The notes under the pieces were generated by a model. That model ran no database searches. It saw only the letters and a program-made list of their open reading frames with translations, and was not told where the DNA came from. Positions 15,809 through 31,956 of a DNA stretch of 34,383 nucleotides are shown here, one piece after another. Origin of the DNA: an uncultured Sphingorhabdus sp. (lineage in GTDB: Bacteria; Pseudomonadota; Alphaproteobacteria; Sphingomonadales; Sphingomonadaceae). Within the stretch, counting starts at the first letter, position 1. Every line of letters begins with the position of its first letter. Location: contig CAJQNR010000173.1 of the NCBI GenBank assembly GCA_905479715.1, positions 1 to 34,383 of the forward strand, read 5' to 3'. The translations under genes and the position numbers were made by a program.

Positions 15809-16165
15809 CATGGGAGGCAGTAATCACTTCGCCGCCCTTGCTTCGTTTTTGTCCGGGTCCGCGGTCTGGCGATTCGACAAATGTTGCGGCCGCCGATAAG
15901 TTTCGATTTCCCTGTGAAGTCTTGCGCGATTGCGACATCAGAATGGCATAGGACAGATGCATCCCTCTAATGTGAGTGTAGCGACTGTCTAATAAGGACC
16001 GTAGCTGTATATGATACTTGGCAATCCGAAACCAACAGAGTAACTCACCAGTTCAGACGGAGGCAGATCGAAAACCAGCGCCGGTTTCGAGCCGCTAAAT
16101 CCCGAGCATTTGCAAGTGCCGGATATCCCGATAGATCAGTGTGTCCGTTAGTGGGTCAGGTTAAT
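15809..16165. other. Intergenic gap, no gene recognised
   Basis: This 357-base stretch separates the metabolic operon from the polysaccharide region. I see no convincing ORF, tRNA or terminator. A small hairpin CGAAAACC-agcgcc-GGTTTCG (one bulge) occurs at 16069-16089. The promoter of the downstream membrane protein presumably lies here, but no clear -35/-10 pair stands out. Confidence 0.5.
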
Positions 16166-17722
16166 ATGTTGGACGGAAAGATACCGCTGAAACGGCAGAG
16201 CGAAGAAAGACCTGCAATATGGTCGGCGTTGTCTGATCTACGATTATTCGGTGCTGTCGCGATATGTGTCTTTGCCGGAACTCTGCTATTTTACGGTTCC
16301 ATTTATTCCGTACATCAAGATCTAGGAGGTAGCGCACTGTCGGGGCGTTTGGCCGTCACGCTCGGTGATAGCTATAGCAATTACAGCGTATATTTCCCAC
16401 CAGTCGAAAAATACTGGTTCTCGCTTGCAGCACAGTTAAGCAGCCTCACCGGGCTGCGGCTCGACCTCATGGTCATAGCAATGACCGATATAATGGTACT
16501 TTTCGGAGCAGGCCTCGCTTTCCAAATCCGGCGCGGAACCGTGGGTGCTTCGCCGCTCTTTTTCATTTCGTCCGTGGCGGTGCTCATCATTCTGCCGATC
16601 CTGTTCAAGAATATCTTCGGGTTGCGCGAGCATATGGTCGTGCTGGGACTCTGGCCCTATCTTGTTCTTCGATTTTCGGACCAAGACGGGACCCTGATTA
16701 GCTGGCGACTGCGGATGATACTGGGCCTTTGGATGGGCGCGACGCTACTTTTCAAGACTTTCTACGCCGCCGTCGTATTTCTGGTCGAAATCACCAATTC
16801 TCTTCTGGAGCGCCGACCACTCTCGCTCTTCCGGATTGAGAACGTCACTGCGGGTATAGTTGTCTTTCTATATCTGTTCTGCTGGCTCGGCTTAGACCCG
16901 CACCAGCGCGAGGTGATCGGCGCAATGATGAACACAATCGATGCCAATCTCCTCGACCGCCGCGAAAATTGGCTGAAATTGGCTGAGAACTTGATTCCCG
17001 CGGTCCCTATGCTGATCGCTTCATGGTATTTCCGAATTCCGAAACGATCGATCGCAATCGCCTTTGTCACTGTGATTGCGACGGCGTTTGCTGCGTGGTC
17101 GCAGGAACGATGGTACTCGCATCATCTATTTCCAATCACTATGGCATATGTTGCATGGTGGTGGATCGCGGCGCGAGAATTTCGCTGGTTTGTCAATCTG
17201 GCCGTGGCGCTGCTTGTCTTGTTGCCGATCAGTGCCCAGTTTCTGAATACGCGTATCTATCAGGAGCAGTCCGAAGAGCTTGAACAGACACTTGAGGAAC
17301 ATGGACAAATAGTGGCGGGGAAACGGGTCGCTGTCCTGACCATGCATCCCTCACCTTATAATCAATATCTTGCTTCTCATGACGCGCTGCGCTGGAACCC
17401 GATGATGAACATCGCCTACGTAGCCGCCGAGTTAAAGCCTTTCGACAAAACGGAACTGGTCGGCAAGACTCCGCCGGTCAAGCTCGATGATCCGGGACGA
17501 ATGATGCTATTTGATCAGATGATGCAGCTATGGGAAGACATGCCGCCTGATGTGCTGATCCTTGACCGAACCCACCGCTGGCCTTTACGCCATATCGATA
17601 TCGATTGGATTCATGTCTTCTCAGAACAACCGAGGTTCAAAGCTTTCCTCAAAAAATATCGTCCTGTAGTGGCTTACGACGGCAATAGGATTAAATTCAC
17701 TTATTATGTCCGCGCCCGTTAG
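16166..17722 (+). CDS. Polytopic membrane protein, GT-C-type glycosyltransferase candidate
   Basis: This is a 518-residue protein I do not recognise by family name. About nine to ten membrane helices span roughly residues 25-370 (for example LFGAVAICVFAGTLLFY, SPLFFISSVAVLIILPILF, AVALLVLLPISAQF), followed by a soluble C-terminal domain of about 150 residues. The large extracytoplasmic first loop with GDSYSNYSVYFPPVEKYW, and the overall layout, suggest a GT-C glycosyltransferase using a polyprenyl-linked donor, which fits the neighbouring glycan genes. A GTG 27 bases upstream (16139) could also start it; ATG 16166 follows a CAGG and is preferred. It is convergent with the flippase gene. Function is inference. 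Confidence 0.7.
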   Translation: MLDGKIPLKRQSEERPAIWSALSDLRLFGAVAICVFAGTLLFYGSIYSVHQDLGGSALSGRLAVTLGDSYSNYSVYFPPVEKYWFSLAAQLSSLTGLRLDLMVIAMTDIMVLFGAGLAFQIRRGTVGASPLFFISSVAVLIILPILFKNIFGLREHMVVLGLWPYLVLRFSDQDGTLISWRLRMILGLWMGATLLFKTFYAAVVFLVEITNSLLERRPLSLFRIENVTAGIVVFLYLFCWLGLDPHQREVIGAMMNTIDANLLDRRENWLKLAENLIPAVPMLIASWYFRIPKRSIAIAFVTVIATAFAAWSQERWYSHHLFPITMAYVAWWWIAAREFRWFVNLAVALLVLLPISAQFLNTRIYQEQSEELEQTLEEHGQIVAGKRVAVLTMHPSPYNQYLASHDALRWNPMMNIAYVAAELKPFDKTELVGKTPPVKLDDPGRMMLFDQMMQLWEDMPPDVLILDRTHRWPLRHIDIDWIHVFSEQPRFKAFLKKYRPVVAYDGNRIKFTYYVRAR

Positions 17723-17811: not shown

Positions 17812-19107
17812 TCAAGCAACGGATTCAGCTGCCTTTTGTGGTTTGATGTAGCGCGCAAGCACGATCAATCCGCTGATCAGGAAAGTCAGACCGAAGGCGG
17901 CTATAGTGCCAAGCATGATGCCATGAATGCCCATGGTCGGTGCCCAGAGAATGCTGAGCCAGATATTCAGCGCGATAGTCAGCGCACTGCAGAGCGACAT
18001 CACTCTGATATCCTTGTCGAAATGAAGGAACTTCATGTTGTGCATAAAAAACCCCTGCAGTACGATTGCGACCATGATGTAGCGAATGAGCGGAATGGCA
18101 CTGTGAAATGCTTCCCCCAGCAAGATCGGCGCCACGTAAAGTGAGACTAAGTAAAAGCTCAGACCGGCGATTGCTGCGAAAAGGAAATACAGCATTGAAA
18201 CCGATAGAACTTCGCCAAGCCCGTCGGATTGCGCAACCTTAAGCTTGCGGAACAGCCAGGGAGTCCACGCCATCACGAAACTGTGATTGATGACCCAAAA
18301 GGCCGAAGCGAACAATGCGGCAACCCCGTACATTGCGCTGGCAGAAACCCCAAGATAATGTGCTGCCACCACTTTGTCGGTCATCGCGACAGCCATGATC
18401 ACCATCCCCGAGGGCCAATAAATCACACCGAATTTTGCAATGTCGCGATAGAAAGAACGCGGCGGCAGACGAAAGAAAAACGAAGGACGATACCCCAATG
18501 CCCGAAGAGAAATCAGAATAGCGATAGTCATTCCTAAAATTCTGCCAAGGATCACTCCACGCCAATCCCAGCCTCCAAACAGAAATAGGGAAATCAAGGC
18601 AATGCTGAGAACCGCCTGTATGACCTGAGTCATGAGAAACGCCTTGCGCCGGTTGTGAAACTGGTGAAGCGCAAGCGCCGTATAAAAAACCTCGAAAAGA
18701 AGCGCCGTGATGACGATGCTGACGAGCCAATCGGCGGGGAACTTGGCGAGTGTAGCCAGAACATCACGAAAAATGAATGTCAGAGTCGAGACGCCAACTG
18801 CCATCATTATCATGACGAATAGTGCGGTGTGCGTAAACTGGTCCAGTTGCTTCTGGTCGAAATCGTAAAATCGCATCCGGATCGCATCCTGAGTGGTCAA
18901 TCCGACGATCGGACGCAAGAAGGTCGCGTAGGTGATGAAAAGCACCCATATCCCGTATTCCGCAGGGGCCAATATCCGTGTGAGAATGGGAGCAAGCAAT
19001 AATGGCACGAGTGCTTCTATGCTGTTCGCGATTGCGTAGAAGAGCGATTGTACCGCCAGAAAGGTCTTCCCTTTCAATTTCAATGCTCTTCGTTTGATAT
19101 GCATCAT
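17812..19107 (-). CDS. Wzx-type polysaccharide flippase (MOP superfamily)
   Basis: This is a 431-residue polytopic protein with about 12 helices. The N-terminal segment LLLAPILTRILAPAEYGIWVL and the following TQDAIRMRFYDFD are typical of Wzx/RfbX O-unit flippases, which move undecaprenyl-linked repeat units across the inner membrane. The open frame extends to a TTG 15 codons upstream, but the adjacent ATGs at 19107 and 19104 are the better starts. It is divergent from the GT-B-like gene at 19253, whose product may build the substrate. The window holds a second, quite different flippase at 27388-28668. Confidence 0.85.
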   Translation of the reverse strand: MMHIKRRALKLKGKTFLAVQSLFYAIANSIEALVPLLLAPILTRILAPAEYGIWVLFITYATFLRPIVGLTTQDAIRMRFYDFDQKQLDQFTHTALFVMIMMAVGVSTLTFIFRDVLATLAKFPADWLVSIVITALLFEVFYTALALHQFHNRRKAFLMTQVIQAVLSIALISLFLFGGWDWRGVILGRILGMTIAILISLRALGYRPSFFFRLPPRSFYRDIAKFGVIYWPSGMVIMAVAMTDKVVAAHYLGVSASAMYGVAALFASAFWVINHSFVMAWTPWLFRKLKVAQSDGLGEVLSVSMLYFLFAAIAGLSFYLVSLYVAPILLGEAFHSAIPLIRYIMVAIVLQGFFMHNMKFLHFDKDIRVMSLCSALTIALNIWLSILWAPTMGIHGIMLGTIAAFGLTFLISGLIVLARYIKPQKAAESVA

Positions 19108-19252
19108 TATATTATTTCGCTTATGTTTTTGCACAATGTCGATGGTTAACAACGCTTAAACCCAATTTATTAACAATTGCCTGCGATATATCGCTGCAGC
19201 CTCGCGACGTACGAAGCGGGTCGGACGATTGTAGCAAATAAGTGAGGGCATC

Positions 19253-20677
19253 ATGGGGCAACAGGCAACATTTGGCATGAAACGGAGCGGGACAGCATTA
19301 GCGACCGAAACCAAATCTGCAATTGTGGAAGAGCTGAAAACCGGGATTCAAACAGCGTATGATTCAGATGTCGAAGTGCGCCGGGATCGATATGATCTCG
19401 TCACCGCGCTAGGCATCATCCGCCGCATAGAAACGTCCTCAACACGCAGCGCGGTTTTCGCGGAGATAAAGGATAAGAATATAATTTACCGGCTGGTCGA
19501 CGCTCTTTATGCCAAGGCCGGGTCTCGCGTCGTGCAACCACTTGTTCTGCTTGCTTATATGCTCAAGTGCGTTCTTTCGCTTGGAAGTGTCAACGATGAT
19601 CATCATGAAGCAGTCGCAATTTCGAACTTTCACAATGAACATGATGCTATCAACCGGTTGGTGGCATTGATTCCCGGCACGCGGGTTATGATGTCGTCCT
19701 CGAATTGGCGTAATATATTCAGGCGCGGCCAGGTGCGCACCGCCATAAGCATGGTTGGTGCTGCGCTACGGGTGTTCCCGTTCCTGTCACGACTTGCGCG
19801 ATCCTACAACTTCATGCCCTCCGCTCGGATCGCGAGCGGTCTGGCCTATTATATTTGGTTTTCGCGGCTCTTCGCGCGGCATCCCGAACTGCGCGCCGCC
19901 ATCGTTGCGAGTAACTATAGTCCGGAGGCCCTTGGCATATCCGCGGCCGCTCACGCGACGAACCGGAATGTCATTTACGTCAACCACGCGCCGGTTCCGG
20001 CGAACGGGGCCATTGTCCCGCCCGTATTAGCCGATTGCGCGGTTTTTTATGGTAATGCGATCCGGTCCACCTATGAGCAGAAGAGCCGCTGCAACGCGGA
20101 TGTTGCGCTGATCGGACAGCCTGGGACCGCTCGTCCGATGGAGTGGCGCGACGAGATCCGTACGGTTGGGATTTTTCTGACCGCGCTGACCTGCGCTAGA
20201 TCCGTCGAGAAGCTTGTCGCTGCGATAAGTGACAGCCGTCCCGATTTGAATATTCTGATCCGCAACCATCCGGTGGCCCTGCTAAAGTCAGACTTTTCAG
20301 ATTTGGCGGCAAGACATGAAAATGTTGAAATCACTATCGGCAACCCGCTTGAGGACGAGATTGCTGCCTGCGATCTGATCTTGTGTGGCAATAGCGGCGT
20401 AGCAATGAATATATTGCGCGGAGGACGACCGGTGGCCTATCTTGATACTCTTGATGAGCTCAATCACGACTATTGCGGGTTCGTTCAAAGTCGGCTCATC
20501 TGTGAGGTCAAGAACTGGTCCGGCGATCTTTATCCTATGATCCGGGCATTCTACACACGCCCCGACTGGCCCCGCATAATGAAGGATTACGATGCCTCTT
20601 ATCGCTCTGACGCCGCGAAGTTGGAGCGCAGGGCAGCAAAGATAATCCTGCGCCACATCAACCCGAAACTTTACTGA
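19253..20677 (+). CDS. Unrecognised GT-B-like glycan enzyme with HAPV motif (copy A)
   Basis: This is a 474-residue cytoplasmic protein without a confident family match. The last ~260 residues look like a GT-B (CDP-glycerol-transferase-like) half: SN at 220-221, VIYVNHAPV with H245-A-P-V248, ADCAVFYG at about 260-267, the donor-site-like IRNHP ending at 340, and CGNSGVAMNILRGGRPV at 378-393, which matches the G-x-S-G-V phosphate-binding loop of such enzymes. These motifs recur in the same order and at nearly the same spacing in the protein at 26090-27358. The first ~200 residues are divergent and carry no clear motif. GAGGGC precedes ATG 19253. A glycosyl- or glycerophosphotransferase is the best guess; it is placed with flippase and nucleotide-sugar genes. 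Confidence 0.65.
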   Translation: MGQQATFGMKRSGTALATETKSAIVEELKTGIQTAYDSDVEVRRDRYDLVTALGIIRRIETSSTRSAVFAEIKDKNIIYRLVDALYAKAGSRVVQPLVLLAYMLKCVLSLGSVNDDHHEAVAISNFHNEHDAINRLVALIPGTRVMMSSSNWRNIFRRGQVRTAISMVGAALRVFPFLSRLARSYNFMPSARIASGLAYYIWFSRLFARHPELRAAIVASNYSPEALGISAAAHATNRNVIYVNHAPVPANGAIVPPVLADCAVFYGNAIRSTYEQKSRCNADVALIGQPGTARPMEWRDEIRTVGIFLTALTCARSVEKLVAAISDSRPDLNILIRNHPVALLKSDFSDLAARHENVEITIGNPLEDEIAACDLILCGNSGVAMNILRGGRPVAYLDTLDELNHDYCGFVQSRLICEVKNWSGDLYPMIRAFYTRPDWPRIMKDYDASYRSDAAKLERRAAKIILRHINPKLY

Positions 20678-20937
20678 GGCTGATTGGTAAGGTGCATTAC
20701 GCCCTAGTAGCCGCGCAACCCTTTCTCGCTGGACGGATCACTCTCCGAGCACGGACTTGTAATTCATTGTCAACCTTATCCTCTCCCTAATGGAACATAT
20801 GCCAAATTAACGGCCATGGTTATAGTTAGGGTAAAGAGGGTTTCGTACTGGTCGCAGCCAAGGCATGCACCACAATTGGGAGAGGGTTGCAGTCGAAATA
20901 ACTGCGATTTACTCCAAAAGTCTGAAGCTAACGGTAG

Positions 20938-22236
20938 TCAGCTGACGAGTCGCATACTCAGGCTTGCTTCCCGATTATCAGGCTGATCGGGCCAGATTCC
21001 GCGCGTGTCATAGACCACTTTGGTGGCGCGTTCATCAAGCGGAATGGATTTGAACATGTCATGATCCGTCAGCGTAATCATGACCGGACAGTTTTCCAAC
21101 GCTTCGTCAATGTCGATCAGTTCCGCGCCCGTGCCTTCAAAGGCTGCCGGTAATTCGCTGGCATAGGGTTCCACAATCTTGATCCGTCCACCGTAGCGTT
21201 TTGCCAGTTTAGTAGCGATTTTAAGCGCAGGGCTCTCCCGAAAATCATCGATATTGGCTTTGAAAGCGAGACCGAAACAGGCGACAGATACACCGGGCAG
21301 TTCGTCGATCAGCAGCGAAGCCTGTTCCAGCACATGGTCGGTTTTCCCGTCATTCACTTCACGAGCAATACGGATCAGTGGCGTATGGCTTGGCGCACCA
21401 TGGATAATGAACCAGGGATCAACCGCGATACAATGTCCGCCGACGCCAGGCCCAGGCTGCAAGATGTTGACCCTGGGATGACGATTGGCGAGGCGAATAA
21501 CCTCCCAGACATCGAGATCCATTTCGTCCGAAACGATCGAAAGCTCGTTGGCGAAGGCAATATTGACATCGCGATAGCTATTCTCAACCAGCTTGGTCAT
21601 CTCCGCGGCGCGTGCGGTTGTGGTCACGCATTCGCCACGGACAAAGCGTCGATAGAATCCCAATGCCTTGCGGGCGCAGCGCGGCGTTATGCCGCCGATG
21701 CAGCGATCATTATTGGTGAGTTCCTCCAGAATTCTTCCCGGCAACACCCGCTCCGGACAATAAGCAATGGCAACATCCGGAACATCATTGGTAAGCCCCG
21801 GTATCTTGAGATCCGGGCGCAATTTCGAAATGAGATCGCGCATTTTCTCGGTTGTACCGACAGGGGAGGTAGACTCCAATATGATGGTATCACCGGCTTT
21901 TAACGCCGCGGCAACATTGGTCGCGGCTTCCATCACATAGCTCGTATCGGGAACATGATTTTTACCAAACGGGGTCGGTACCGCGATAACAAAAACATCG
22001 GCAGGTTCAATAAGCAGCGACGCCCGCAACGTACCGCGTGCGACAACACCTTGCACCAATCCTTCCAGATCGACCTCTTCAATATGGATTTTGCCGCTAT
22101 TCACCGTATCAACAACATGGGGCGTTACATCTACACCCAGCACCGGGCATCCGGAACGGGCTATGACCGCCGCAGTCGGCAAGCCGATATAGCCAAGGCC
22201 CAAAACGCAAACGGAAGGTTTCGTGTCGGAAATCAT
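20938..22236 (-). CDS. wecC: UDP-N-acetyl-D-mannosamine dehydrogenase
   Basis: This 432-residue enzyme oxidises UDP-ManNAc to UDP-ManNAcA with two NAD+. The N-terminal Rossmann motif GLGYIGLP is at residues 13-20. The catalytic cysteine is C269 in GPGVGGHCIAVDPWF, and the lysine-asparagine helix is EMTKLVENSYRDVNIAFANEL (K215, N219). The family-typical FGLAFKANIDDFRESPAL occurs in the C-terminal half. GGAGA lies about 10 bases upstream of ATG 22236. It follows wecB in the same direction, which supports WecC over a generic UDP-glucose dehydrogenase. The product UDP-ManNAcA would feed an acidic surface glycan. Confidence 0.94.
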   Translation of the reverse strand: MISDTKPSVCVLGLGYIGLPTAAVIARSGCPVLGVDVTPHVVDTVNSGKIHIEEVDLEGLVQGVVARGTLRASLLIEPADVFVIAVPTPFGKNHVPDTSYVMEAATNVAAALKAGDTIILESTSPVGTTEKMRDLISKLRPDLKIPGLTNDVPDVAIAYCPERVLPGRILEELTNNDRCIGGITPRCARKALGFYRRFVRGECVTTTARAAEMTKLVENSYRDVNIAFANELSIVSDEMDLDVWEVIRLANRHPRVNILQPGPGVGGHCIAVDPWFIIHGAPSHTPLIRIAREVNDGKTDHVLEQASLLIDELPGVSVACFGLAFKANIDDFRESPALKIATKLAKRYGGRIKIVEPYASELPAAFEGTGAELIDIDEALENCPVMITLTDHDMFKSIPLDERATKVVYDTRGIWPDQPDNREASLSMRLVS

Positions 22237-22315
22237 GATTTGAGATTCTCCCGAATGCGCCTCATGCGGCGGAAATTTCAGGAATCACCATGGTAGAATA
22301 TCGTAAAGATTTCGG

Positions 22316-22342
22316 TAACAGGGATTACATTCATCCCCGTTA
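22316..22342 (-). other. Stem-loop between wecB and wecC
   Basis: TAACAGGGA and TCCCCGTTA form a 9-bp stem with one mismatch across a 9-base loop in the 116-base wecB-wecC gap. No T tract follows on the minus strand, so it may be a processing or partial-termination site more than a full terminator. Confidence 0.35.
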
Positions 22343-22352
22343 TCGCCTGACT

Positions 22353-23498
22353 TCAATGGATCAGGCTTCGCTCGATAATATCCGCAATCCGCTCGCTCGA
22401 ATGCCCGTCCCCGAAAGGATTATGGGCTTTGGCCATCATGTCATAATAGTTTGGATCATCCAGCAATTTTTCGGTTTCACTCACGATCAGGCCGATATCC
22501 GTCCCTACCAATTTGGCTGTGCCCGCCTCCACGCCTTCCGGCCTTTCGGTGGTGTCGCGCATCACCAATACCGGCTTTCCGAGAGCGGGCGCTTCTTCCT
22601 GAACACCACCGCTATCGGTGAGCATCAAGGTACAACAGTCAATCAAGGCCACGAAATCCGGATAATCCAGCGGTTCAATCATCGCAACATTGGCGAGATC
22701 ACCAAGTGCATCGCGCATGATGGCGCGTACATTGGGGTTGAGGTGCACCGGAAAAATGAGGGCGACGTCATCGCGGCGCGCAATTTCACGAAGCGCGGCA
22801 GCTATATTGGTCAATCCATCACCGAAATTCTCGCGCCTATGGCTGGTAACGCCGATAATTTTTTTATCGGAGAAATTGGCGAACAGGGTTTTTAGTCGCG
22901 CGCTGATGCGTTGGCCGTCACGGTTCTTTTCTCTCGTCGCCAGCAAAGCATCAATCACCGTGTTACCCGTCACGCTGATCTGTTCCTCAGGGACATTTTC
23001 TTTACGCAAGGCCGCAGCCGATGTTTCTGTCGGCGCAAAATGTTGATCGGCGATCGTGCCAATAATCTTTCGATTCACTTCCTCTGGCCACGGATGATAA
23101 ATATTATAGCTGCGGAGGCCCGCTTCGACATGGCTAACGGGGATTTTGCGATAATAAGCCGCAAGCGCACCGCACATAGCGGTAGCGGTATCACCCTGAA
23201 CCACGACCCTCTGCGGTTTGATTTCATCGAGAACCTGTCCGATGCCGGTCAGAAGCCGGCCGGTCAGTTCGTCAAGGCTCTGGTTGGCCCGCATCAGATC
23301 CAGATCATAATCGGGCGCAATTTCGGCGATTTCCAGAACCTGATCCAGCATCTCGCGGTGCTGCGCGGTCACACAGGCGATGCTCTCTAGGCTATTGCGC
23401 TTTGATAGTGCCCGGATCACCGGAAATAGCTTGATGGCTTCTGGCCTTGTGCCGAAGATTGTGACGATTTTCGGCTTGGAAATTGAACTGTTTGTCAT
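22353..23498 (-). CDS. wecB: Non-hydrolysing UDP-GlcNAc 2-epimerase
   Basis: This 381-residue enzyme interconverts UDP-GlcNAc and UDP-ManNAc in the cytoplasm. The family start TIFGTRPEAIKLFPV has R18, E20 and K23. QGDTATAMCGALAAYY with D103 and VSHVEAGLRS with E125 give the catalytic acid residues, and LTDSGGVQEEAPALGKPVLVMRDTTERPEG is the C-terminal signature. Length and motifs are standard for WecB. The start ATG 23498 has a weak ribosome binding site. It lies between a small upstream ORF and wecC and with wecC makes UDP-ManNAcA. Confidence 0.95.
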   Translation of the reverse strand: MTNSSISKPKIVTIFGTRPEAIKLFPVIRALSKRNSLESIACVTAQHREMLDQVLEIAEIAPDYDLDLMRANQSLDELTGRLLTGIGQVLDEIKPQRVVVQGDTATAMCGALAAYYRKIPVSHVEAGLRSYNIYHPWPEEVNRKIIGTIADQHFAPTETSAAALRKENVPEEQISVTGNTVIDALLATREKNRDGQRISARLKTLFANFSDKKIIGVTSHRRENFGDGLTNIAAALREIARRDDVALIFPVHLNPNVRAIMRDALGDLANVAMIEPLDYPDFVALIDCCTLMLTDSGGVQEEAPALGKPVLVMRDTTERPEGVEAGTAKLVGTDIGLIVSETEKLLDDPNYYDMMAKAHNPFGDGHSSERIADIIERSLIH

Positions 23499-23556
23499 GG
23501 CGCACCCATTACCGGGTTAAGGCTAATATTTGCTAAATTGCCTCGATGATTAAATC

Positions 23557-23658
23557 TTACCTTTGAATAATGGGGACGGCAAGTTTGGACCTGCAGTAGA
23601 AATATCCGTATCCACAGCCGTAGGTGGAGAGCTTGAGACTTTTCTGTTTATTTCTCAT
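23557..23658 (-). CDS. Small ORF upstream of wecB (33 residues, Gly/Tyr/Cys-rich core)
   Basis: A 33-codon frame begins at ATG 23658 with AGGAG 5 bases upstream, a much better ribosome binding site than wecB itself has. The product starts MRNKQKSLKLS (basic) and has a core YGCGYGYFYC with two cysteines, ending AVPIIQR. It stops 58 bases before wecB. A candidate promoter lies at 23710-23739. It could be a leader peptide that controls wecBC, a small secreted or redox-active peptide, or a remnant. I know no family for it; conservation in relatives would decide. Confidence 0.45.
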   Translation of the reverse strand: MRNKQKSLKLSTYGCGYGYFYCRSKLAVPIIQR

Positions 23659-23709
23659 CTTCGCTCCTACGTCACGAAGGGATTCGAATTAAATGGACGA
23701 GGCATTGAA

Positions 23710-23739
23710 ATCATAGCATGAAATAATCGGCAAAGCCAA
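23710..23739 (-). promoter_or_regulatory. Candidate sigma-70 promoter for the small ORF-wecB-wecC unit
   Basis: On the minus strand TTGGCT (23739-23734), an 18-base spacer and TATGAT (23715-23710) match the -35 and -10 elements at 4/6 and 5/6 positions. Transcription would start about 45 bases upstream of the small ORF. Confidence 0.4.
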
Positions 23740-24025
23740 AATCCACCCCGATATATACCCCTACTTCCAATTGGCTGCATTGTATTTCCGCTTTGCGCCC
23801 AGAGCACAGAACCGCTTCATAGCATTGGTTCATGGTTTGAAGGACCACGATATGATTAGGTGCTTAGGGCAGTGCAATCGTTCAATGAGCGCCTGGGCGA
23901 TAGCGATAGAAGGCGCGTCGCGCACACGAACGATCTTGCGGCTCATGGCGCGTTTGCGCTGATCGTTCGTATGCACGACGGCGGATTCAACCGGTCGTCG
24001 CAACACCCTGCTTGAGAAGGTTTTG

Positions 24026-24300
24026 ATGAAAACGCCTAAAGGCACTTCAAAACAGTGTACCCGCCGCAAGTTGCGATCGCCAGGTCATCCCCCCGGGTGG
24101 GGCCCGAACATCTTTGCCGTTACTGGGAGGCTATTGCGGCAGGGCGTTCGAGTGAGAATACGGCTATTGTAGCTGGTGTTTCGGCACCGGTCGGTGCGCG
24201 CTGGTTTAGGATTGCAGGAGGAATGCCGCCAACTCAATTCACCTGATCAGCAGTCTCACCTGCCGGACGCGATTTAACATTCCCAGAGCGCGAAGAAATC
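24026..24300 (+). pseudogene. IS30-type transposase N-terminal remnant, frameshifted and truncated
   Basis: Two reading frames together give the N-terminal region of an IS30-family transposase as I recall it from sphingomonads. The first frame starts at ATG 24026 (MKTPKGTSKQCTRRKLRSPG). After a shift in the C-rich run near 24087-24097, the second continues (RYWEAIAAGRSSENTAIVAG, then RWFRIAGGMPP). A TGA interrupts it at 24244-24246, after which the helix-turn-helix lead-in GRDLTFPEREEI is recognisable up to 24300. The DDE catalytic core is wholly missing, so it cannot be active. It joins directly to pyruvyl transferase sequence. The stretch from 23740 to 24025 holds no recognisable gene but may contain the element's left end. 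Confidence 0.6.
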
Positions 24301-24872
24301 AGATCTGTTGGTGCCGTGCTATCCGTCGGCGGGGATAACCATTCATTTGATTATCGTCTACCATCCACGGGGATGGGCCTCGATCAACTAGCGTTGGAGT
24401 TAGGCAAGCCCGTATATATATGGGGCGGGACCCTTTGAGGCGGAACCGCATTTTGTGCCAGCCATACGCAAGCGTTTAGCGAAAATGACAATGATCGCGG
24501 TGCGCGAAAGTATTTCATATGCTTATCTTACCCAGACGCTAGGCCTTAGCAATGTCGCACAAATGGCCGATCCCTCCTTCACTCTATCCAGAGTACCAGT
24601 TGATACGGCTGCCTTCTGGCCCAAGGCCGGACCCAACGGTACCATTGGCTTGAACGTCAGTCCTCTGATAGCGCGTTACAACAACAATCAGGAACTGCGC
24701 ACCGAGACCATTAAGTTTATCCGAGATTTTGTAGCAAAGGGTTTGGTGTTCTGCTAGAATCGCACTTCCCCCTCAATGGAGCGGAAAAGAACAATGATGC
24801 GGTCGATATGGCCAAAATACTGGAAGAGATGCAAGATCTGGGCGAAGCCGTGCGCCAGATGCTGAGCAGGGT
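24301..24872 (+). pseudogene. Polysaccharide pyruvyl transferase remnant (two frameshifts, no N-terminus)
   Basis: The family core is readable across two frames. The first, 24301-24426, gives GAVLSVGGDN and LALELGKPVYIWG. A shift near 24427 leads to GPFEAEPHFVPAIRKRLAKM, VRESISYAYLTQTLGLSNV, MADPSFTL and GLNVSPL (to about 24747). A second shift returns to the first frame for VLLESHFPLNGAEKNNDAV and MAKILEEM, fading by about 24872. The N-terminal ~100 residues and the C-terminal acceptor-site region are missing. Intact relatives add pyruvate ketals to glycan sugars. The remnant implies that the ancestral polysaccharide at this locus was pyruvylated. Confidence 0.75.
24382..24397. repeat. 16-bp direct repeat, copy 1 (in pyruvyl transferase remnant)
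   Basis: GATCAACTAGCGTTGG occurs here and again, in the same orientation, at 34084-34099 in the gap before the nonulosonate synthase gene. Both copies are followed shortly by GTTAGG. Here it encodes DQLAL of the pyruvyl transferase. Confidence 0.4.
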
Positions 24873-24944
24873 CGGTCCCCGGAGCGGTGCAAGCTGTTGG
24901 CGCGGGAGTGTTTGGCGACTTTGCTTGAGGTTTTGGGGTAGGAA

Positions 24945-25886
24945 ATGGGAAAAAAGGTTATCGTTACCGGTGCAACGGGCCGCATTGGGCGAGCACTGTT
25001 AGCTCATAGCCACTCGCAGCTATATGAAGTGCATGCTATTGTAAGAAGAAAGAGCGATACCGTCAGAACTATCTCCGGGGGCGTCAATATAACCTACCAT
25101 GCGGTGGGTGACCTCGCATTCTGCAATACTAACGCCTTAACGCCCATATTACAAAATGCGGACGCAGTGATCCATCTCGCAGCGATGATCGCCGAGGATG
25201 GGCCTGCGAATGAAAGTGCTACCGTCAAAATGGCTGAGAATGTCGCAAAAGTATGCGCAGAAGCAAGTGTTCCGTATATTATCCATCTGAGTAGCATTTC
25301 CGCTCGGTTAGCCCAAGAAGGGGCCGCTAATTCGAGGTTATATGGTCAGCGAAAGCTAGAAGCGGAACATGCGTTTAATAGTCAATGTGCAGATAATTCC
25401 GCAGTAATTAACTTACGTCCCCCAGCTGTATATGGAGAAGGTATGGGAGGGCCTTTATCTGCTATGATCTCGCTAGTGCGGATGGGTATTCCATTACCTT
25501 TTGCTCGCGCTAGAGAGCAAAGAGACTATATTTCGATCAACAATTTAGTTGACCTAGTTTGGAGTATAATAAAGCAGCAATTGTCATGTAATTCGAACTC
25601 TGGGGTGAAGGAATATGAGCCATGTGATGGTCTACCTTTAGCCACAAATGAGCTTACGAAACTCATCGCAAATTCATTGGGGCGAAGGGCAATTCAATTC
25701 CCGGTGCCGATAGCACTAATTTCTTCTATTTTAAAATTGCTCGGTAAAGCTGAATTGGCTGATGGAGCTTTCGGGTATTTAAAGGCGCGCGGCAATTTTG
25801 AGCTGAAGAGGGATTTTGGCTGGGCACCCATAGAAACTATGCCTGAAAGTTTAGAATTTTTACGTTCTTCAACTAAGCTTCAGTAG
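24945..25886 (+). CDS. NAD-dependent epimerase/dehydratase (extended SDR)
   Basis: This is a 313-residue extended short-chain dehydrogenase of the GalE/WbuJ-like nucleotide-sugar group. The cofactor loop TGATGRIG is at residues 8-15, followed by DAVIHLAAMIAEDGP. The catalytic serine lies in HLSSISA (S116/S117), and Y133 and K137 complete the YxxxK pair (LYGQRKLE). INLRPPAVYGEG is the usual substrate-binding segment. Likely roles are 4-epimerisation, 4-ketoreduction or dehydration of a UDP- or dTDP-sugar; the exact sugar cannot be read. TAGGA precedes ATG 24945. It is the first gene of the AT-rich block, 72 bases after the last recognisable part of the pyruvyl transferase remnant. Confidence 0.85.
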   Translation: MGKKVIVTGATGRIGRALLAHSHSQLYEVHAIVRRKSDTVRTISGGVNITYHAVGDLAFCNTNALTPILQNADAVIHLAAMIAEDGPANESATVKMAENVAKVCAEASVPYIIHLSSISARLAQEGAANSRLYGQRKLEAEHAFNSQCADNSAVINLRPPAVYGEGMGGPLSAMISLVRMGIPLPFARAREQRDYISINNLVDLVWSIIKQQLSCNSNSGVKEYEPCDGLPLATNELTKLIANSLGRRAIQFPVPIALISSILKLLGKAELADGAFGYLKARGNFELKRDFGWAPIETMPESLEFLRSSTKLQ

Positions 25887-26089
25887 ATTCTCAATATGAT
25901 TATGCGCTGGTCGATTTGCAGACCGTCTTTGGACAAAACATTAATTGCATTGGTTTTAGGGATTTCGTTAGTTTGATCCAATTCACTTTTCTGAAAATTG
26001 AACATTTCAGGCTTCGTTTAATTCTCTTTAGAGACTACTATTGCGCAGAAAATGGGCGCCGTATTGAGAGTTGGAGATAGTGAATAACG

Positions 26090-27358
26090 ATGTTGAGGCA
26101 CCTGACCCAATGGGTAGAGGATCGATTAGAACGATTGAACGTCGAATTTGGCAATCCATTACTCAATGGAGCAACCATATTTGCACGTATTTCTCCAAAA
26201 TGGTTAAATGGCATTGCACATTTGCTAATATTTATCTTCAAGGAAATGACATTCAAGCGCTATAAGTGGAATGCTAAACCTGTGCTTATATGCGTAGGAA
26301 GCCATAACAACTATCATTCGGCAAGTTTAGCTTTTGGAAACCGCGAAGATATTCAATTTGCAACGTTTCACAATTACTATTTACCCAATACTCCTAAAAT
26401 TAACCTTCTTTTTTGTTATCTGAGTGGTTCTTTTATTGTACTATTTTTGCCGTTATTTTTTTTGATTATCAAAAAGCCTAACCTTAGAAAATATATGATT
26501 TTCCGTACGGACCAAATGGCGCTTAGTTTTGGTTCGCGGTGGTTTGTTCGTCGAGCAATAAAACGCTCCGGAGCCCAAGTTTTAATTCTGATGTCAAACC
26601 TATCAGTATACCATAATCTGATTCTAGAAGAGGCTAACCGATTAGGCGTTAGTACAATATTCGCGACACATGCTCCTGTAGGGCGAGGCCAACGAGCTTT
26701 GAGAACAGACTATGCCATGCTTGATGGTGAATGGCAAAGTAGTCTCTATCCATCTTCAAACACCAAATTCTTGATAACTGGATCAGCGCGCGGCGCAGAG
26801 TTGGTCGAGCGTTGGGAATCGCGATTAAATTATACTGGCTTAATAATCGCAACGAACACGCTAATGATCGATCTAAATATCATCGAAAAATTCATATCGC
26901 TTTTAAAAGACCGCTATCCACTTATGCCGATTTCGTTGAGGCCGCACCCTAGAGATGTCGAGCGACATGAAGCTCACCGCATCATTTGTGAGAATCATAG
27001 CATAGCTTATAATGATCCTAAAAAGCCCCTAGTTCAACCTAATGACAGCTATAAATATCTCGCGACCGGGCTGAGCGGAGTAATGATTGATGCGTTACTG
27101 GTCGGCATGTATCCGCTCCAGATTTCTGAACCGCAATTGGACATGCTTTTAGCACACACCCCTGATGACTATTATGGACTTCATGAGCTCAATCTAGTGA
27201 GAACGATTGACCTAAATGACCCGGTACTCCCAACTGACTGGCTTATAGGTGACCAGTTGGTCGAACTCGAGAAGTCTGCCCAACCAGGTTGGGATAGTAA
27301 AAAACTCATGAATGAAGCGCTCGATGAGATATTGAGGCATCAAAATACTGTCAGGTAA
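26090..27358 (+). CDS. Unrecognised GT-B-like glycan enzyme with HAPV motif (copy B)
   Basis: This 422-residue protein has no confident family match. A hydrophobic segment at about residues 107-127 may be a membrane helix or a buried hairpin. The C-terminal half shares the motif order of the protein at 19253-20677: SN at 169-170, TIFATHAPV with H194-A-P-V197, TDYAMLDG at 206-213, LRPHP ending at 287, and TGLSGVMIDALLVGMYP at 326-342. RPHP and the G-x-SGV loop are typical nucleotide-binding elements of CDP-glycerol- or sialyltransferase-like GT-B enzymes. The gene is clearly AT-rich. A 203-base gap separates it from the epimerase; GGAG lies 13 bases before ATG. It is convergent with the second flippase. 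A glycosyl- or glycerophosphotransferase is the best guess. Confidence 0.65.
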   Translation: MLRHLTQWVEDRLERLNVEFGNPLLNGATIFARISPKWLNGIAHLLIFIFKEMTFKRYKWNAKPVLICVGSHNNYHSASLAFGNREDIQFATFHNYYLPNTPKINLLFCYLSGSFIVLFLPLFFLIIKKPNLRKYMIFRTDQMALSFGSRWFVRRAIKRSGAQVLILMSNLSVYHNLILEEANRLGVSTIFATHAPVGRGQRALRTDYAMLDGEWQSSLYPSSNTKFLITGSARGAELVERWESRLNYTGLIIATNTLMIDLNIIEKFISLLKDRYPLMPISLRPHPRDVERHEAHRIICENHSIAYNDPKKPLVQPNDSYKYLATGLSGVMIDALLVGMYPLQISEPQLDMLLAHTPDDYYGLHELNLVRTIDLNDPVLPTDWLIGDQLVELEKSAQPGWDSKKLMNEALDEILRHQNTVR

Positions 27359-27387: not shown

Positions 27388-28668
27388 TTATATATTGTTG
27401 CTACCACGGATCGGGAGAAAGTGTGCTAAACTTATGTAACCAACCAGCCTGATTAATGCACCACAGATCATTACCCATGGCAAATACTGCGCTGCAGGTT
27501 CGCTCAGTGCGAACGTACTAAGAATAAAAACGAGAGCGAATATATCCACTTTTAACAATTGTTTGCGTGATACTCGCCAAAATACCGTCTCGATCACAAC
27601 AAGAATACTAGCTTGTATGATAAAAAACGCTGCCATGCCTGCAATTAATGATACTGAAAACATGGCTTCGTATTCAGGATTTATTGTTTTAGCGAAAATC
27701 GCAGCAACAATTGCACAGGCGGCCAGTAAAAATGGGAGCATAAGGTTAGGAAGGCGCAACCATTCGCTCATTATCATTTTTCCCTGTGTTTTGATCAATT
27801 CCGGCCTTCTGGGTGTAAAATATAAAATGGAATGGCCAACGACAATCATATTGAACAATGTGGCAAAAAATACATAAACATCTAATCGCAGACCTTCTTG
27901 GTTAGCAACCCAGAGCCGGTCCAAAAGGTAGAAATTAACACTTAAAAATGACCACAGCTGATTAAAACTATACTCATTTCGCCAACGTTTAAGAAATCGA
28001 GAAATCATCGATGCCGCTCCGTGTCGAAATTCGTGCCAAATGCTTACGCAAATTTTAGCGTAAAACTTTGTGTAACGTTTTTTTATGAGCAGATATGATG
28101 CGAAGCTGAGGATAGATATCAGTGAATAATATATAATTATACGTCCAGAAATGAAGTGCATAGCAGTCACAATGACTATTCCTGGAATAACAGTTCGCGC
28201 CGCAAACGAGGCGGACCACCTCAGATATTGTCTGGTAAAAAGATGATGTCGCTGGTCTTCATCAAAAAACTTTTCGATGACAACGTGCATTGTCAAAAGC
28301 CCAATAATAAGAGAATCATTTGTCCATAAAAATGCAACAACAGCCACTAAAGGCAACACAATTACTAAATGCGTTAAGCTGTCACGAAAATAATCTCGAA
28401 AAGCGTAGCTATACCCGGTTCGATTTTGTTCATCAAATCGGAGTTTATAATACTGGATGTGTATCTGGGCGCCGGTTAAGACGAATAAAGATGCGAGAGC
28501 CGTGGTCAGTAAAGCGTAGTCAATAGCAAATTGGCTTTGTCCTATCAGACTAGCTAGAAAGATAATCAATGGCCTTAATAGAAGACCGAAAACTCTTGTG
28601 ATCAGAAATACTAGAAAGTCGTGCCTTTGGTTTAGACGGTAATATAATTTACCAATCATCATCTCCAT
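27388..28668 (-). CDS. Second flippase-like polytopic membrane protein
   Basis: This 426-residue protein has about 12 hydrophobic segments, with no signature that identifies it beyond doubt. Size, helix pattern and position in a glycan locus suggest a divergent Wzx/MOP flippase. The N-terminus (MEMMIGKLYYRLNQRHDFLVFLITRVFGLLLRPLIIFL) is cytoplasmic-basic then hydrophobic, as expected. The start ATG 28668 shares its A with the TAA of the GT4 gene (TAATG), so the pair is translationally coupled. Two more in-frame ATGs follow at once. The sequence does not align obviously with the flippase at 17812-19107. An O-antigen polymerase is a less likely alternative. Confidence 0.65.
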   Translation of the reverse strand: MEMMIGKLYYRLNQRHDFLVFLITRVFGLLLRPLIIFLASLIGQSQFAIDYALLTTALASLFVLTGAQIHIQYYKLRFDEQNRTGYSYAFRDYFRDSLTHLVIVLPLVAVVAFLWTNDSLIIGLLTMHVVIEKFFDEDQRHHLFTRQYLRWSASFAARTVIPGIVIVTAMHFISGRIIIYYSLISILSFASYLLIKKRYTKFYAKICVSIWHEFRHGAASMISRFLKRWRNEYSFNQLWSFLSVNFYLLDRLWVANQEGLRLDVYVFFATLFNMIVVGHSILYFTPRRPELIKTQGKMIMSEWLRLPNLMLPFLLAACAIVAAIFAKTINPEYEAMFSVSLIAGMAAFFIIQASILVVIETVFWRVSRKQLLKVDIFALVFILSTFALSEPAAQYLPWVMICGALIRLVGYISLAHFLPIRGSNNI

Positions 28669-29951
28669 TAATCACGCTTGTTTCGATTTTGGGCCACTAA
28701 ATTTTCTAAATGCTGTTGATATTCTGTATAAATTTTATCTGCGTTAAAATGCAAATCAAAATAATTACGGATACGTTGTCTTTCCGTGTCATTTGCGAAA
28801 TAATCTATTCCATCTTTGATGGCATTTGCTGCAGCTTTAGGGTCACGCATGTCAACAGCGGTACCAAGTTTCTCTCTGTGCAAAAGTTTCGCGCCCTCAC
28901 CTGTGAATGTAGCAACCTGATAGAGACCTGCAGACATATATTCAAACAGCTTGTTCGGCATGCCTTGAGGCGAGTTGGTTCGATAGGGCGCAATTGCGAT
29001 TTGGCTGTCATTCATAAGCTGTGCGATTTGATTACGGTCAAGCCAGCCAGGGCATATAATATTGGGTTGGCTTTTCATTCGCTCACGAAGCGCTTCGGCC
29101 TGTTCACCGTCACCAGCAATAATGAACTGGATATCTTTACGTTCACTTAGCAGTATGGCTGTGTTTAAAAGATACTGAAGATCGTATGTTTGACCCCATG
29201 AACCGATAAAGCAAACTAGTGACTTAGAAAAATCGACACCAAGAAATTGAAGTTCCTCTCTAGCCTTCCGTTTGTTCAAATCCGAATTCATGGGAGAATA
29301 ACCAAGTGGCAATATCGTATCGTTTATTCCTTGGTCCCGGCCTGCCTTCTTCAAGGCCCAATCCAAATATCCTTCTGAAATACCGACAATAGATGTCGCG
29401 TTCCTACAAGCTCTTGTCACACCGTGATCCATATGTGCAATAAGGGGGCGCGCAAGTTTTGCTTTCATTGGCGACAGAAATTTTTCAAAAAAGTCTGGCC
29501 ATAAATCTCGTATAGATAATACGGAGGGTATGCCCCATCGTTCTGCAAGTAGGACGCCCTGAAGTGCCATTTCCGGCATAGGCATATCCAGCACCATTAT
29601 ATCCGGTATAGCTTGACCATGTTGTACTAATTGAGATGCGCGCTGGACCGCACGCTTGCTTACAAGCCAGTTATGAATGAATCTTTTTGGAGAAGTATTC
29701 CGGGTATATCCTGGGCCATCTAACAATTCCAAAACTAGACCATCGGTCAACATATATTGGCCGTGGGGCTGGGTTCTCATGCGCTTCTGATAATGGTCAA
29801 ACGTCGAATTGAACCAACGGACGTTGTGGCCAGCCGCAGCTAAGCGCGTAGCAAACATCCCGGCACGCATCAGCCGCGGGTTGCCTGGATCAATCGGAAT
29901 AGGCTCGCAGTCGCGCCATATCCATATATTCAATGGGGAGGTTGTTCTCAT
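28668..29951 (-). CDS. GT4-family glycosyltransferase (WbuB-like)
   Basis: This is a 427-residue GT-B retaining glycosyltransferase. The N-terminal acceptor half has NPRLMRAGMFATRLAAAGHNVRW, and SIRDLWPDFFEKFL is a hallmark of the WbuB-like O-antigen enzymes. The donor half contains VCFIGSWGQTYDLQYLL, FIIAGDGEQAEALRERM, CPGWLDRNQIAQLMNDSQIAIAPYR and the E-x7-E-type NKLFEYMSAGLYQVAT. It would add a sugar from an activated donor to a lipid-linked acceptor at the cytoplasmic face. The start ATG 29951 has only a weak ribosome binding site. It is 22 bases downstream of the acyltransferase gene. Confidence 0.9.
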   Translation of the reverse strand: MRTTSPLNIWIWRDCEPIPIDPGNPRLMRAGMFATRLAAAGHNVRWFNSTFDHYQKRMRTQPHGQYMLTDGLVLELLDGPGYTRNTSPKRFIHNWLVSKRAVQRASQLVQHGQAIPDIMVLDMPMPEMALQGVLLAERWGIPSVLSIRDLWPDFFEKFLSPMKAKLARPLIAHMDHGVTRACRNATSIVGISEGYLDWALKKAGRDQGINDTILPLGYSPMNSDLNKRKAREELQFLGVDFSKSLVCFIGSWGQTYDLQYLLNTAILLSERKDIQFIIAGDGEQAEALRERMKSQPNIICPGWLDRNQIAQLMNDSQIAIAPYRTNSPQGMPNKLFEYMSAGLYQVATFTGEGAKLLHREKLGTAVDMRDPKAAANAIKDGIDYFANDTERQRIRNYFDLHFNADKIYTEYQQHLENLVAQNRNKRD

Positions 29952-29973: not shown

Positions 29974-31956
29974 CTAACGAAAATTTAAACTATCAAACAA
30001 TGGAACTAATAACTCAGCTCCGGCAATCGATAGATGATCGTGGTCGAAATAGTACGATTGGTCACTGTTACCCACTGCGCAATACATTTGGCATAGCTTC
30101 GAAGCTGGATCCAATATCATTACACGTTGGTGCTTTTTTGCGATTTTGTCAAAAAGCTTATCAGAAAATTCTTGAAGATTTCGATGTTGTTTCAACGAGA
30201 CCGAAGCAACAAGAACCGACTGCTCAGTTAGGCTCTTTTGACTCAACTCATAATAAATGTCCCGAGGATCCTTCAGTTGTTCCGGCACCTGTCGCACCAA
30301 AACAACATCAACTCCTGCTTCTGACAGAGCCTTAACTCTTTGATTTAGCGCTGTCTTAAAAATCGACCGTGTTATTTCTGTTGATTTTTTTGCATCGGGA
30401 GTCAGCCCCAGATAGAAAAAATCATCTCCCTCATAGCCACCCTCGCTGTAACCGCTCCATCGCGCAATTAATACGACTGTTTTAATATTGGATGCTTGAA
30501 TGCGGCTGAACACATTTTCACTTAGATCTTTGCAGCTACGGCCCCCTTGATCTGGGCGAAGAGAGTATACACCGCCCAGAGGTAGACAGCCACTAGATGC
30601 AATGAAATAGGCACTTTGTTGACTGTTCTCGAATGCGATGTCGATGGCTGGGAGCATTGAGAAAGCATGACTGTCTCCGAAAACAAGAATACGTGGCTCG
30701 ACTTTTGATGCGCCAATCTTGCAACTTATCTCTTCAAGGCTGCCAGTAATGGGTAAATCAAAACAGATTGATTGAAGCTCTGACCGTTTAAATGATGCCT
30801 CAACACTTTTGGGCAAATCATATCGGGACGGCACACCTTTCGACAGATGAAGCGCTAGGCCAATCAAAAACATGGCCATCATTCCGGCCGCTGTCATTAA
30901 AAAAATATGCCTTCTACTAAAGGTAAATTTATCTCGGAATGGACGTTCCAAATAACGCCAACTTATCCATCCAATAGGGAATGAAAGCAGGCCAATAACC
31001 GGCAAAATGGTGGAAGGCAGAGAGTCATCGAAATGAAGACGGGCGAAGGCCATAAACGGAAAATGCCAAACATAGACACTGTAGCTTATCAACCCCACTA
31101 ATACTATCCATCGATGCGCTAACAGACGCGTAACTAACCCGTCTTTCTGGCAGAACACAATTAATAATGCGGCTCCTATTACAACCGGTAGAGTGTAACG
31201 GCCCGGAAAAGGGACATCTTTATCTAAGTAGAAAATGGACCAAGCAATCATTCCAAGGCCAATTACGGCTAGCAGGTCAGCACCTTTACTTGGATTTATC
31301 GATTTTACGGCAAGAAATACCGCAATTAATGATCCTATCAACAATTCCCATATTCGGTACGGAGGTAGGAAGAATACCGCCATTACATCTTGATCAGACA
31401 TTATGTCGGATGCTGTGAATGAAATAATGGTGATTATAGATAATATAATACCGATCAGTCGATACGATAGAAACTTCCAGAAACGAACTATAATAAGCGG
31501 AAAGAAAAGATAGAATTGCTCTTCAACCGCAAGGCTCCACATATGTAAAAATGGCAGATTTTCAGCAGCGGTGGAAAAATAATCAATTTTCAGATAGAAA
31601 TATACGTTCGATAGAAACAAACTCATAGCTACTAAACTTTGGCCATAATCCTCTAACTCATTTGGAAGCATAATCATCCAAGCAAAAGGTATGGTCGCAA
31701 AGGCGGCAAAAAAGAGAACAGGGAATATTCGACGTGCCCGCCGTTCGTAAAAATTCACAAGGGAAAATTTTTCCTCAGCTACTTCTGTAAGCAGAATTGA
31801 GGTTATTAAATAGCCACTTATGACAAAAAAAATATCAACGCCGACAAAACCACCAGAGAAACTGGAGAAGCCCGCATGGAATAGTACGACTGGAATCACA
31901 GCTATAGCACGAAGCCCATCAATTTCCGGACGGTAAGACAGGCGGTTTATATTCAC
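29974..31956 (-). CDS. O-acyltransferase, AT3 membrane domain fused to SGNH domain (OafA-like)
   Basis: This is a 660-residue fusion. The first ~370 residues are an acyltransferase-3 membrane domain with YRPEIDGLRAIAVIPVVLFH (catalytic H27) and FFVISGYLITSILL. The remainder is a periplasmic SGNH domain with FGDSHAFSMLP (catalytic serine, block I) at about residues 423-433 and DHDHLS (catalytic D and H) near residue 643. Such proteins acetylate or otherwise acylate O-antigen or capsule sugars. The start is a GTG at 31956, because no in-frame ATG fits the conserved N-terminus. It probably modifies the glycan made by its neighbours. Confidence 0.92.
   Translation of the reverse strand: MNINRLSYRPEIDGLRAIAVIPVVLFHAGFSSFSGGFVGVDIFFVISGYLITSILLTEVAEEKFSLVNFYERRARRIFPVLFFAAFATIPFAWMIMLPNELEDYGQSLVAMSLFLSNVYFYLKIDYFSTAAENLPFLHMWSLAVEEQFYLFFPLIIVRFWKFLSYRLIGIILSIITIISFTASDIMSDQDVMAVFFLPPYRIWELLIGSLIAVFLAVKSINPSKGADLLAVIGLGMIAWSIFYLDKDVPFPGRYTLPVVIGAALLIVFCQKDGLVTRLLAHRWIVLVGLISYSVYVWHFPFMAFARLHFDDSLPSTILPVIGLLSFPIGWISWRYLERPFRDKFTFSRRHIFLMTAAGMMAMFLIGLALHLSKGVPSRYDLPKSVEASFKRSELQSICFDLPITGSLEEISCKIGASKVEPRILVFGDSHAFSMLPAIDIAFENSQQSAYFIASSGCLPLGGVYSLRPDQGGRSCKDLSENVFSRIQASNIKTVVLIARWSGYSEGGYEGDDFFYLGLTPDAKKSTEITRSIFKTALNQRVKALSEAGVDVVLVRQVPEQLKDPRDIYYELSQKSLTEQSVLVASVSLKQHRNLQEFSDKLFDKIAKKHQRVMILDPASKLCQMYCAVGNSDQSYYFDHDHLSIAGAELLVPLFDSLNFR

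Follow-up and report, generated by a model that had tools for sequence, protein, structure and literature searches.

Many bacteria carry pseudaminic acid (Pse) on flagella, capsules or O-antigens, and to our knowledge only a small number of enzymes have been assigned to its transfer. Transferases of the GT-B fold that act on cytidine monophosphate (CMP)-linked ulosonic acids are already known, and the retaining 3-deoxy-D-manno-octulosonic acid (Kdo) transferases of families GT99 (WbbB), GT107 (KpsC) and GT140 (KrkA) and the pseudaminyltransferase KpsS1 (GT118) all use a CMP-ulosonate donor in a capsule or O-antigen context. As described in the available passages of PMC12887879, WbbB, KpsC and KrkA are multi-module enzymes, WbbB and KpsC possess a highly modified GT-B fold, and the WbbB-type Kdo transferases employ an Asp nucleophile present within a QxxxD-type motif. 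The window examined in this work, by which we mean the whole 34,383-nucleotide stretch of contig CAJQNR010000173.1 (GenBank assembly GCA_905479715.1) from an uncultured Sphingorhabdus sp., encodes two proteins, P0001 and P0002, which are probable members of a hitherto unrecognised family of CMP-pseudaminate transferases that act on surface polysaccharides. This family, for which a CMP-ulosonate donor and a similar context are proposed, would be an addition to the enzymes indicated above; its residue-level mechanism is much less certain.

A described enzyme of similar size is the Pse5Am7Gra transferase GtfS of Tannerella forsythia (Tanf_01245; 445 aa), which was compared with the window proteins by description only. 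In the passages available from PMC6120980 and PMC6388019, GtfS contains an HP motif and transfers Pse to a residue of the N-acetylmannosamine-uronic acid type, and its gene follows pseBCFHGI and a wzx flippase in a cluster that also carries wecB/wecC. The same portion of PMC6388019 indicates that the HP motif is important for the binding of CMP-N-acetylneuraminic acid in bacterial sialyltransferases and that the Maf flagellin pseudaminyltransferases are likewise candidate Pse transferases. Unlike Maf, neither P0001 nor P0002 shows any Pfam match (at E<=10), and the clusters described here look to be of the surface-polysaccharide type with flippases. The two proteins and their motif residues are as follows.

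19253..20677, + strand, 474 aa: P0001, GT-B family member, predicted CMP-pseudaminate transferase; motif residues N128, N221, H245-APV, D261, R337-x-H339-P340, S381-G-V and D406/G409
26090..27358, + strand, 422 aa: P0002, second, divergent member of the P0001 family; motif residues N170, H194-APV, R284-x-H286-P287, S329-G-V and D360-YYG

The initial annotation of this DNA had placed these two open reading frames (ORFs) at the above coordinates and had read them as one enzyme family sharing an ordered set of motifs. The spacings on which it relied are reproduced in our analysis: the Asn of the SN motif precedes the His of HAPV by 24 residues in both proteins (N221-H245 and N170-H194), the distance from HAPV to R-x-HP is 92 residues in P0001 (H245-R337) and 90 in P0002 (H194-R284), and that from R-x-HP to the Gly of GxSGV is 42 and 43 (44 and 45 from the Arg to the Ser). 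The guanine plus cytosine (GC) content of the two genes also differs as had been noted (0.542 versus 0.417). However, the description of the proteins as unrelated end to end was too strong, as a BLASTP alignment between them covers 288 residues with 24% identity (E=5e-6). Because HAPV, R-x-HP and SGV are all in register within this alignment, the two proteins are homologous and coincidence is excluded. Their Smith-Waterman score of 96 compares with 36+/-5 for 1000 shuffles (highest 57) and with a highest score of 64 for the locally shuffled sequence. In the profile-profile comparison that had been suggested, hhalign matched the P0001 and P0002 subfamilies with an E value of 1.5e-6 (probability 90%), and each of them matched a third sphingomonad subfamily (6.9e-25 and 5.4e-7). 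A chance similarity is thus ruled out by the BLASTP, hhalign and shuffle results, and the assignment of P0001 and P0002 to one enzyme family is supported.

The evidence for function consists of genomic linkage and motifs, from which the donor identity, residue roles, acceptor, lipid carrier and stereochemistry are inferred. Pse genes were present within the fetched flank of 17 of the 18 distinct non-window loci of the HAPV type, the exception (L035) being a contig of 3.3 kb. In tblastn searches over these 17 loci, PseI was detected in 16, PseC (at least 50% identity) in 15 and PseB (at least 50%) in 14, where the queries were taken from L045, the locus of the closest relative of P0002, which thus counts as a self-match. 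Based upon NCBIfam equivalog models, L045 contains PseB, C, F, G and I above the cut-off, L028 contains PseB, C, F and I with PseG just under it (144.9 versus 153.55 bits), and L046 contains PseG, PseH and PseI. Loci of the kind of L028 begin with the membrane protein gene c6 and PseI, and after some other genes continue with PseG, PseF, PseC, PseB, the flippase and the glycosyltransferase. Four more distant loci (L090, L091, L092 and L093), which include those of Sinorhizobium meliloti Rm41 and S. fredii NGR234, all possess PseI, PseG and PseF, and three of them also PseB and PseC. The linkage is present in every HAPV/HAEV/HASV clade, including that of L045 and two loci from outside the class (L092 and L093).

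The linkage was also seen in a draw of 298 genomes from the family, in which PseI scored over the cut-off in 16 genomes and 28 showed a match at E<=1e-60. With the A3 profile, members were clear in five genomes of this draw (G000, G020, G111, G286 and G315), and one weak match (G230) was excluded; the two surveys, which are of equal size and carry the same genome handles, were taken as one draw. Leaving aside the genome of the window, each of the four genomes with a clear member is also one of the 16 that are PseI-positive, corresponding to a hypergeometric probability of 5.7e-6 if the genomes were independent, which they are not fully. In G230 (C1:1541428-1556931), two NeuB-type genes are located 10-14 kb away from the weak HP-S motif match L085, which may represent another sialic-acid-type transferase.

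Two further observations concern the gene content of the Pse clusters. A cytidylyltransferase-like gene (c10) is found where PseF is expected in L025, L026, L037, L038, L044 and L046, being fused in L046 to an aldo-keto-reductase-like domain, and in L025 and L026 PseI is located on the far side of the glycosyltransferase; the c10 gene is possibly an alternative CMP-Pse synthetase. In addition, WbqC-like, FAD/NAD-binding and formyltransferase-like genes are present inside the Pse clusters (L028:1773-2519, L028:2519-3781 and L045:3524-4213), and they may point to unusual N-acyl Pse derivatives.

The relatives of these proteins were gathered from a profile of six rows (A1) and one genome-collection scan with 14 loci, and they were found in Sphingomonadaceae, Sphingopyxis and Erythrobacter-type bacteria, among them Erythrobacter sp. 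NAP1 with L029, and in one metagenome-assembled genome labelled as Rhizobiaceae group. With P0001 as the lone query, clear members were detected in 4 of the 298 genomes of the family draw, its own genome included. Members were found in 8 of 296 genomes of the order draw (one weak) and in 4 of 200 of the phylum draw (one weak), while the class draw gave matches in 10 of 385 genomes, strong only in its own genome, G744 and G830. P0002 as the lone query retrieved one relative besides itself from 196 genomes, and neither P0002 nor the L088 protein matched anything in the plasmid collection. Ten weak profile matches that are short and lie around the HP-S stretch (L014, L018-L024, L085 and L089; E values of 4e-6 to 8e-4) were left out of the member counts, L014 and L018-L024 being judged by motifs alone. 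L031, which is close to L030, was included in the linkage count and excluded from A3, from the alignment described below and from the tree. Five places with two handles were counted once (L028=G286, L029=G506, L031=G499, L033=G437 and L038=G020), and the analysis was confined to loci other than the Sinorhizobium/Ensifer plasmid matches H2-H5 and H7, L094 and the PseI loci L050-L079.

An alignment of 15 sequences (A8), in which the other rows are 16-54% identical to P0001, spans the P0001 type, the P0002 type, a third sphingomonad type (L037, L038 and L046) and the L088 protein from another class of the phylum; it also takes in the N-terminal domain of a 1024-aa Sinorhizobium protein, its relative from G993 and two remote HGQ proteins. 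The P0001-type relatives in the A3 profile alignment reach 66% identity. Five residues besides the start Met are invariant in all 15 rows of A8, namely H245, Y274, H339, P340 and G391, and the suggestion of a conserved His thus holds; the position of D261, the Asp of the D-containing strand, is acidic in every row. The SGV motif is less strictly kept, reading SS[VI] in four rows and TG in the two HGQ rows. The His motif itself occurs as HAPV, HAEV, HASV or HGQ[IV], and as HATV in L032, and R-x-HP is replaced by K-x-HP in three rhizobial-type rows. An Asn or Asp is present exactly 24 residues before the His in all 16 sequences measured, including both window proteins; the pattern used for motif spacing required N or L before the Ser, and the Ser of L003 was hence missed. 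In the remote relatives L016/L048 (G744) and L017 (G830), HAPV and NSGV are replaced by MHGQ and GNTG, respectively. In the tree, P0001 and P0002 were part of different, well-separated clades, P0002 branching with a G111 protein that is 42% identical to it; several branches are long and the deep branching order is unsure.

The NCBIfam library returned nothing for P0002 and two weak matches for P0001, both below cut-off and over the HP-to-S stretch: TIGR04396 (surface carbohydrate biosynthesis; 18.4 bits against a curated cut-off of 125) and NF046086 (BFO_1060 glycosyltransferase; 16.3 bits against 200). Among 15 members the best E values for these models were 7e-5 and 0.0012, and E<=1 was reached in only three and two of them, respectively. 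As neither Pfam nor NCBIfam holds a model for the family, annotation by these libraries misses it; the family is uncatalogued there, although a numbered CAZy family may already exist for it. The literature searched on Pse transferases, Pse-bearing sphingomonads and the rhizobial K antigen, which covers few subscription journals, contained no description of the family, a search for the term BFO1060 found no paper, and the family is not described in the passages available from PMC12887879, PMC4881576, PMC7591256, PMC3556828, PMC5429615, PMC6120980 and PMC6388019.

The predicted model of P0001 shows a GT-B fold with two Rossmann-like domains facing a cleft, and its secondary-structure line places H245, H339 and S381 at strand ends. 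Generic classical GT-B enzymes rank first among its best 50 structural matches, in contrast to the highly modified GT-B fold of WbbB and KpsC; the entries that we take to be WbbB are not among these 50, which is uninformative either way. Against the PDB sequences, the A8 profile gave E<1 only for 8csb, 8csd, 5fa0 and 8cse, four variants of one enzyme labelled "N-acetyl glucosaminyl transferase" (E of about 5.5e-4, over the HP-to-NS stretch), which is presumably the CMP-Kdo-using GT99 domain of WbbB. As far as this weak match indicates, the Kdo transferases and this family would share HP and S motifs within their C-terminal halves. Membership in GT99 or GT107 was considered and rejected, as the Q-x(2,3)-D nucleophile motif is absent, at the strand end before HP, from all 15 rows (the place being judged by eye). 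Such a motif occurs elsewhere in the HAPV-to-HP stretch of five sequences (L035, L003, L088, L090 and L091), and QVEDD is found in a KpsC-like protein encoded in the Rm41 locus. The family profile, compared with this KpsC-like protein in place of KpsS1 (GT118), gave E=0.0057 at a probability of 6%.

In the mechanism that we propose, P0001 and P0002, which are deeply diverged, would act in the cytoplasm on CMP-Pse and pass Pse, or a sugar closely derived from it, to a glycan linked to undecaprenyl, and the neighbouring flippase would then move the glycan across the membrane. CMP-Pse would be bound by the C-terminal Rossmann domain, its CMP phosphate lying next to R337-x-H339-P340 and S381-G-V and its ribose next to residue 386 (N/E/D). 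H245, located just after an N-terminal strand, may face the donor across the cleft, and it is the leading candidate for activating the acceptor (possibly as a base) or for holding the donor carboxylate. These roles of H339, S381, residue 386 and H245 are proposed on the basis of homology and position. D261, whose acidic counterpart in both Sinorhizobium rows is a Glu, may be structural rather than catalytic, judging from its place before a strand.

P0001 and the L038 protein both match a 1024-aa protein of Sinorhizobium meliloti Rm41 and S. fredii NGR234, encoded on pSymB and pNGR234b in stretches with Pse genes where the plasmid tables are unannotated; this protein may be the RkpY of the literature. 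It carries the family domain at the N-terminus (HAEV, K-x-HP, NSSV and DYYG), and a C-terminal GT-D-like domain (PF22882) is present in the Rm41 protein and its G993 relative, both of which were scanned. According to passages of PMC4881576 and PMC7591256, the K antigen of Rm41 consists of glucuronic acid (GlcA) and a Pse derivative, and that of NGR234 of Pse and GlcA, the PseI of the latter (RkpQ) being encoded in the rkp-3 locus of pNGR234b. The Rm41/NGR234 protein may be a two-headed polymerase that alternates Pse and GlcA. Three two-domain proteins from loci with Pse genes are candidate rhizobial K-antigen polymerases (PF22882 was found in L090 and L093, those scanned).

L090:14434-17508: two-domain protein
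L091:11419-14493: two-domain protein
L093:5666-8458: two-domain protein

Other features of the window that surround P0001 and P0002 are given below.

16139..17722, + strand: membrane protein c6, 527 aa, no Pfam match at E<=0.01
17812..19152, - strand: flippase A (PF01943), conserved divergent partner of P0001-type genes
20938..22236, - strand: UDP-sugar dehydrogenase (PF03721/PF00984/PF03720), presumably WecC-type from its place beside WecB
22353..23498, - strand: WecB-type UDP-GlcNAc 2-epimerase (PF02350)
27388..28668, - strand: putative flippase B, without a Pfam match, which converges on P0002 and has a 42% identical counterpart in the G111 locus
28668..29951, - strand: group-1 (GT4-like) glycosyltransferase of the P0002 cluster
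29974..31956, - strand: acyltransferase-3/SGNH fusion, likely for glycan O-acetylation
32051..33376, - strand: membrane protein, putatively Wzy-like by position, relatives in the L045 and L037 loci
33331..34035, - strand: PhyH-type dioxygenase, relatives directly after PseI in L037, L038 and L046, another in L048 (no Pse genes)
34158..34383, - strand: last 74 residues of PseI (pseudaminic acid synthase), truncated where the contig ends; match to TIGR03586 with E=9.3e-16 over model positions 261-326 of 327

A different putative flippase thus stands beside each gene, as the initial annotation had indicated. The P0002 cluster comprises PseI, the PhyH, Wzy-like, acyltransferase and GT4-like genes, the flippase and P0002, and relatives of its flippase, Wzy-like and PhyH genes occur in L045; with the C-terminus of PseI at the contig edge, it has the appearance of a Pse cluster truncated where the contig stops. 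The P0001 module is compact, c6 and flippase A being about 90 bp apart as in L035, whereas in 11 relatives' loci (L025-L031, L033, L036, L041 and L044) they are separated by about 4-8 kb containing Pse genes. It is a reasonable inference that P0001 draws CMP-Pse from the neighbouring P0002 cluster. The GC content is about 0.57 at 1-16000 and falls to about 0.39-0.46 across the P0002 cluster (24900-34383), which suggests that the P0002 block was horizontally acquired and adjoins a less divergent P0001 block. No long ORF is present at 23520-24900, between WecB and the SDR (short-chain dehydrogenase/reductase) gene; a 100-aa ORF at 24455-24757 matches PF04230 (polysaccharide pyruvyl transferase) under the cut-off (E=2.2e-4) and is probably a decayed gene. 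WecB/WecC were rejected as constant partners of P0001 supplying a ManNAc-uronic acid acceptor: among the loci compared, WecB was found in the window only, and WecC in the window with weak matches in L038 (25%) and L048 (33%). As they are rarely found outside the window, their association is a local feature at best.

A number of observations weigh against the proposed function. No Pse genes adjoin the P0001 module in the window, and the genome assembly, which is 89.5% complete, yielded neither PseC nor PseG in a search that did not extend to PseF, while its PseB match, located on a different contig, stays under the cut-off. The pathway is visible only in part in L037 and L038, the clear genes being PseI, a PseG-like gene and the cytidylyltransferase-like gene. 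No Pse genes were present around the HGQ loci L048 (G744; 20 kb examined) and L017 (G830; 3.6 kb examined), which are the strongest matches of the class draw outside the family, and the wider superfamily may therefore use other donors. Further, no member was detected at E<=0.001 in 12 of the 16 genomes positive for PseI, and thus the use of Pse does not require this family; these genomes presumably use other Pse transferases or contain members too divergent for the A3 profile. Lastly, the loci share ancestry and are not independent events, and the P0002 cluster encodes a second glycosyltransferase (28668-29951).

This last gene bears on the alternative that survives best, which is that the proteins add another sugar adjoining Pse in the same glycan and travel with Pse genes without handling CMP-Pse. 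Linkage alone cannot separate this from use of CMP-Pse, and genes of the same cluster (c16) as the other glycosyltransferase occur in L045, L038 and L046. However, L028 has no other NCBIfam glycosyltransferase (E<=1e-5) among the nine ORFs scanned of 16 others picked, the donor half carries the HP and S motifs and matches in the PDB what is presumably a CMP-sugar enzyme, and the linkage persists across clades whose neighbours otherwise differ, for which reasons we regard this alternative as unlikely. It is more improbable still that some members use another CMP-linked ulosonate (legionaminic acid, neuraminic acid or Kdo), Pse being merely the commonest. Consistent with it are 12 genomes of the 298-genome survey with weaker NeuB-type matches, which fall outside the linkage test, the incomplete Pse set of the window genome, and the six loci with c10 that show no PseF match (NCBIfam being applied to the L046 gene only); in contrast, PseI is above its equivalog cut-off in the three annotated loci and NeuB is under its own. 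That the proteins are not transferases and instead are GT-B-fold nucleotide-sugar epimerases or hydrolases, as the best structural matches suggest, is the least credible alternative, and the reading as a non-hydrolysing UDP-GlcNAc 2-epimerase is rejected, neither protein matching PF02350 at E<=10.

Transfer of Pse from CMP-Pse is thus the function that we favour for P0001 and P0002. A wider proposal, which we advance tentatively and at somewhat less than even confidence, is that these proteins represent a new GT-B Pse-transferase family mechanistically apart from the Asp-nucleophile Kdo/Pse enzymes, with a His replacing that chemistry. Such a family would span the single-domain sphingomonad enzymes for O-antigen or exopolysaccharide and the N-terminal half of a two-domain rhizobial enzyme that would polymerise the GlcA-Pse K antigen unaided, and its two non-orthologous members in the window would share one pool of CMP-Pse for two surface glycans. 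The family provides a testable Pse-transferase candidate in harmless environmental bacteria, with the conserved residues H245, H339 and S381 available as targets for mutation, and new Pse transferases would aid the enzymatic synthesis of glycans. It also names a candidate for the builder of the Pse-containing K antigen in nitrogen-fixing rhizobia.

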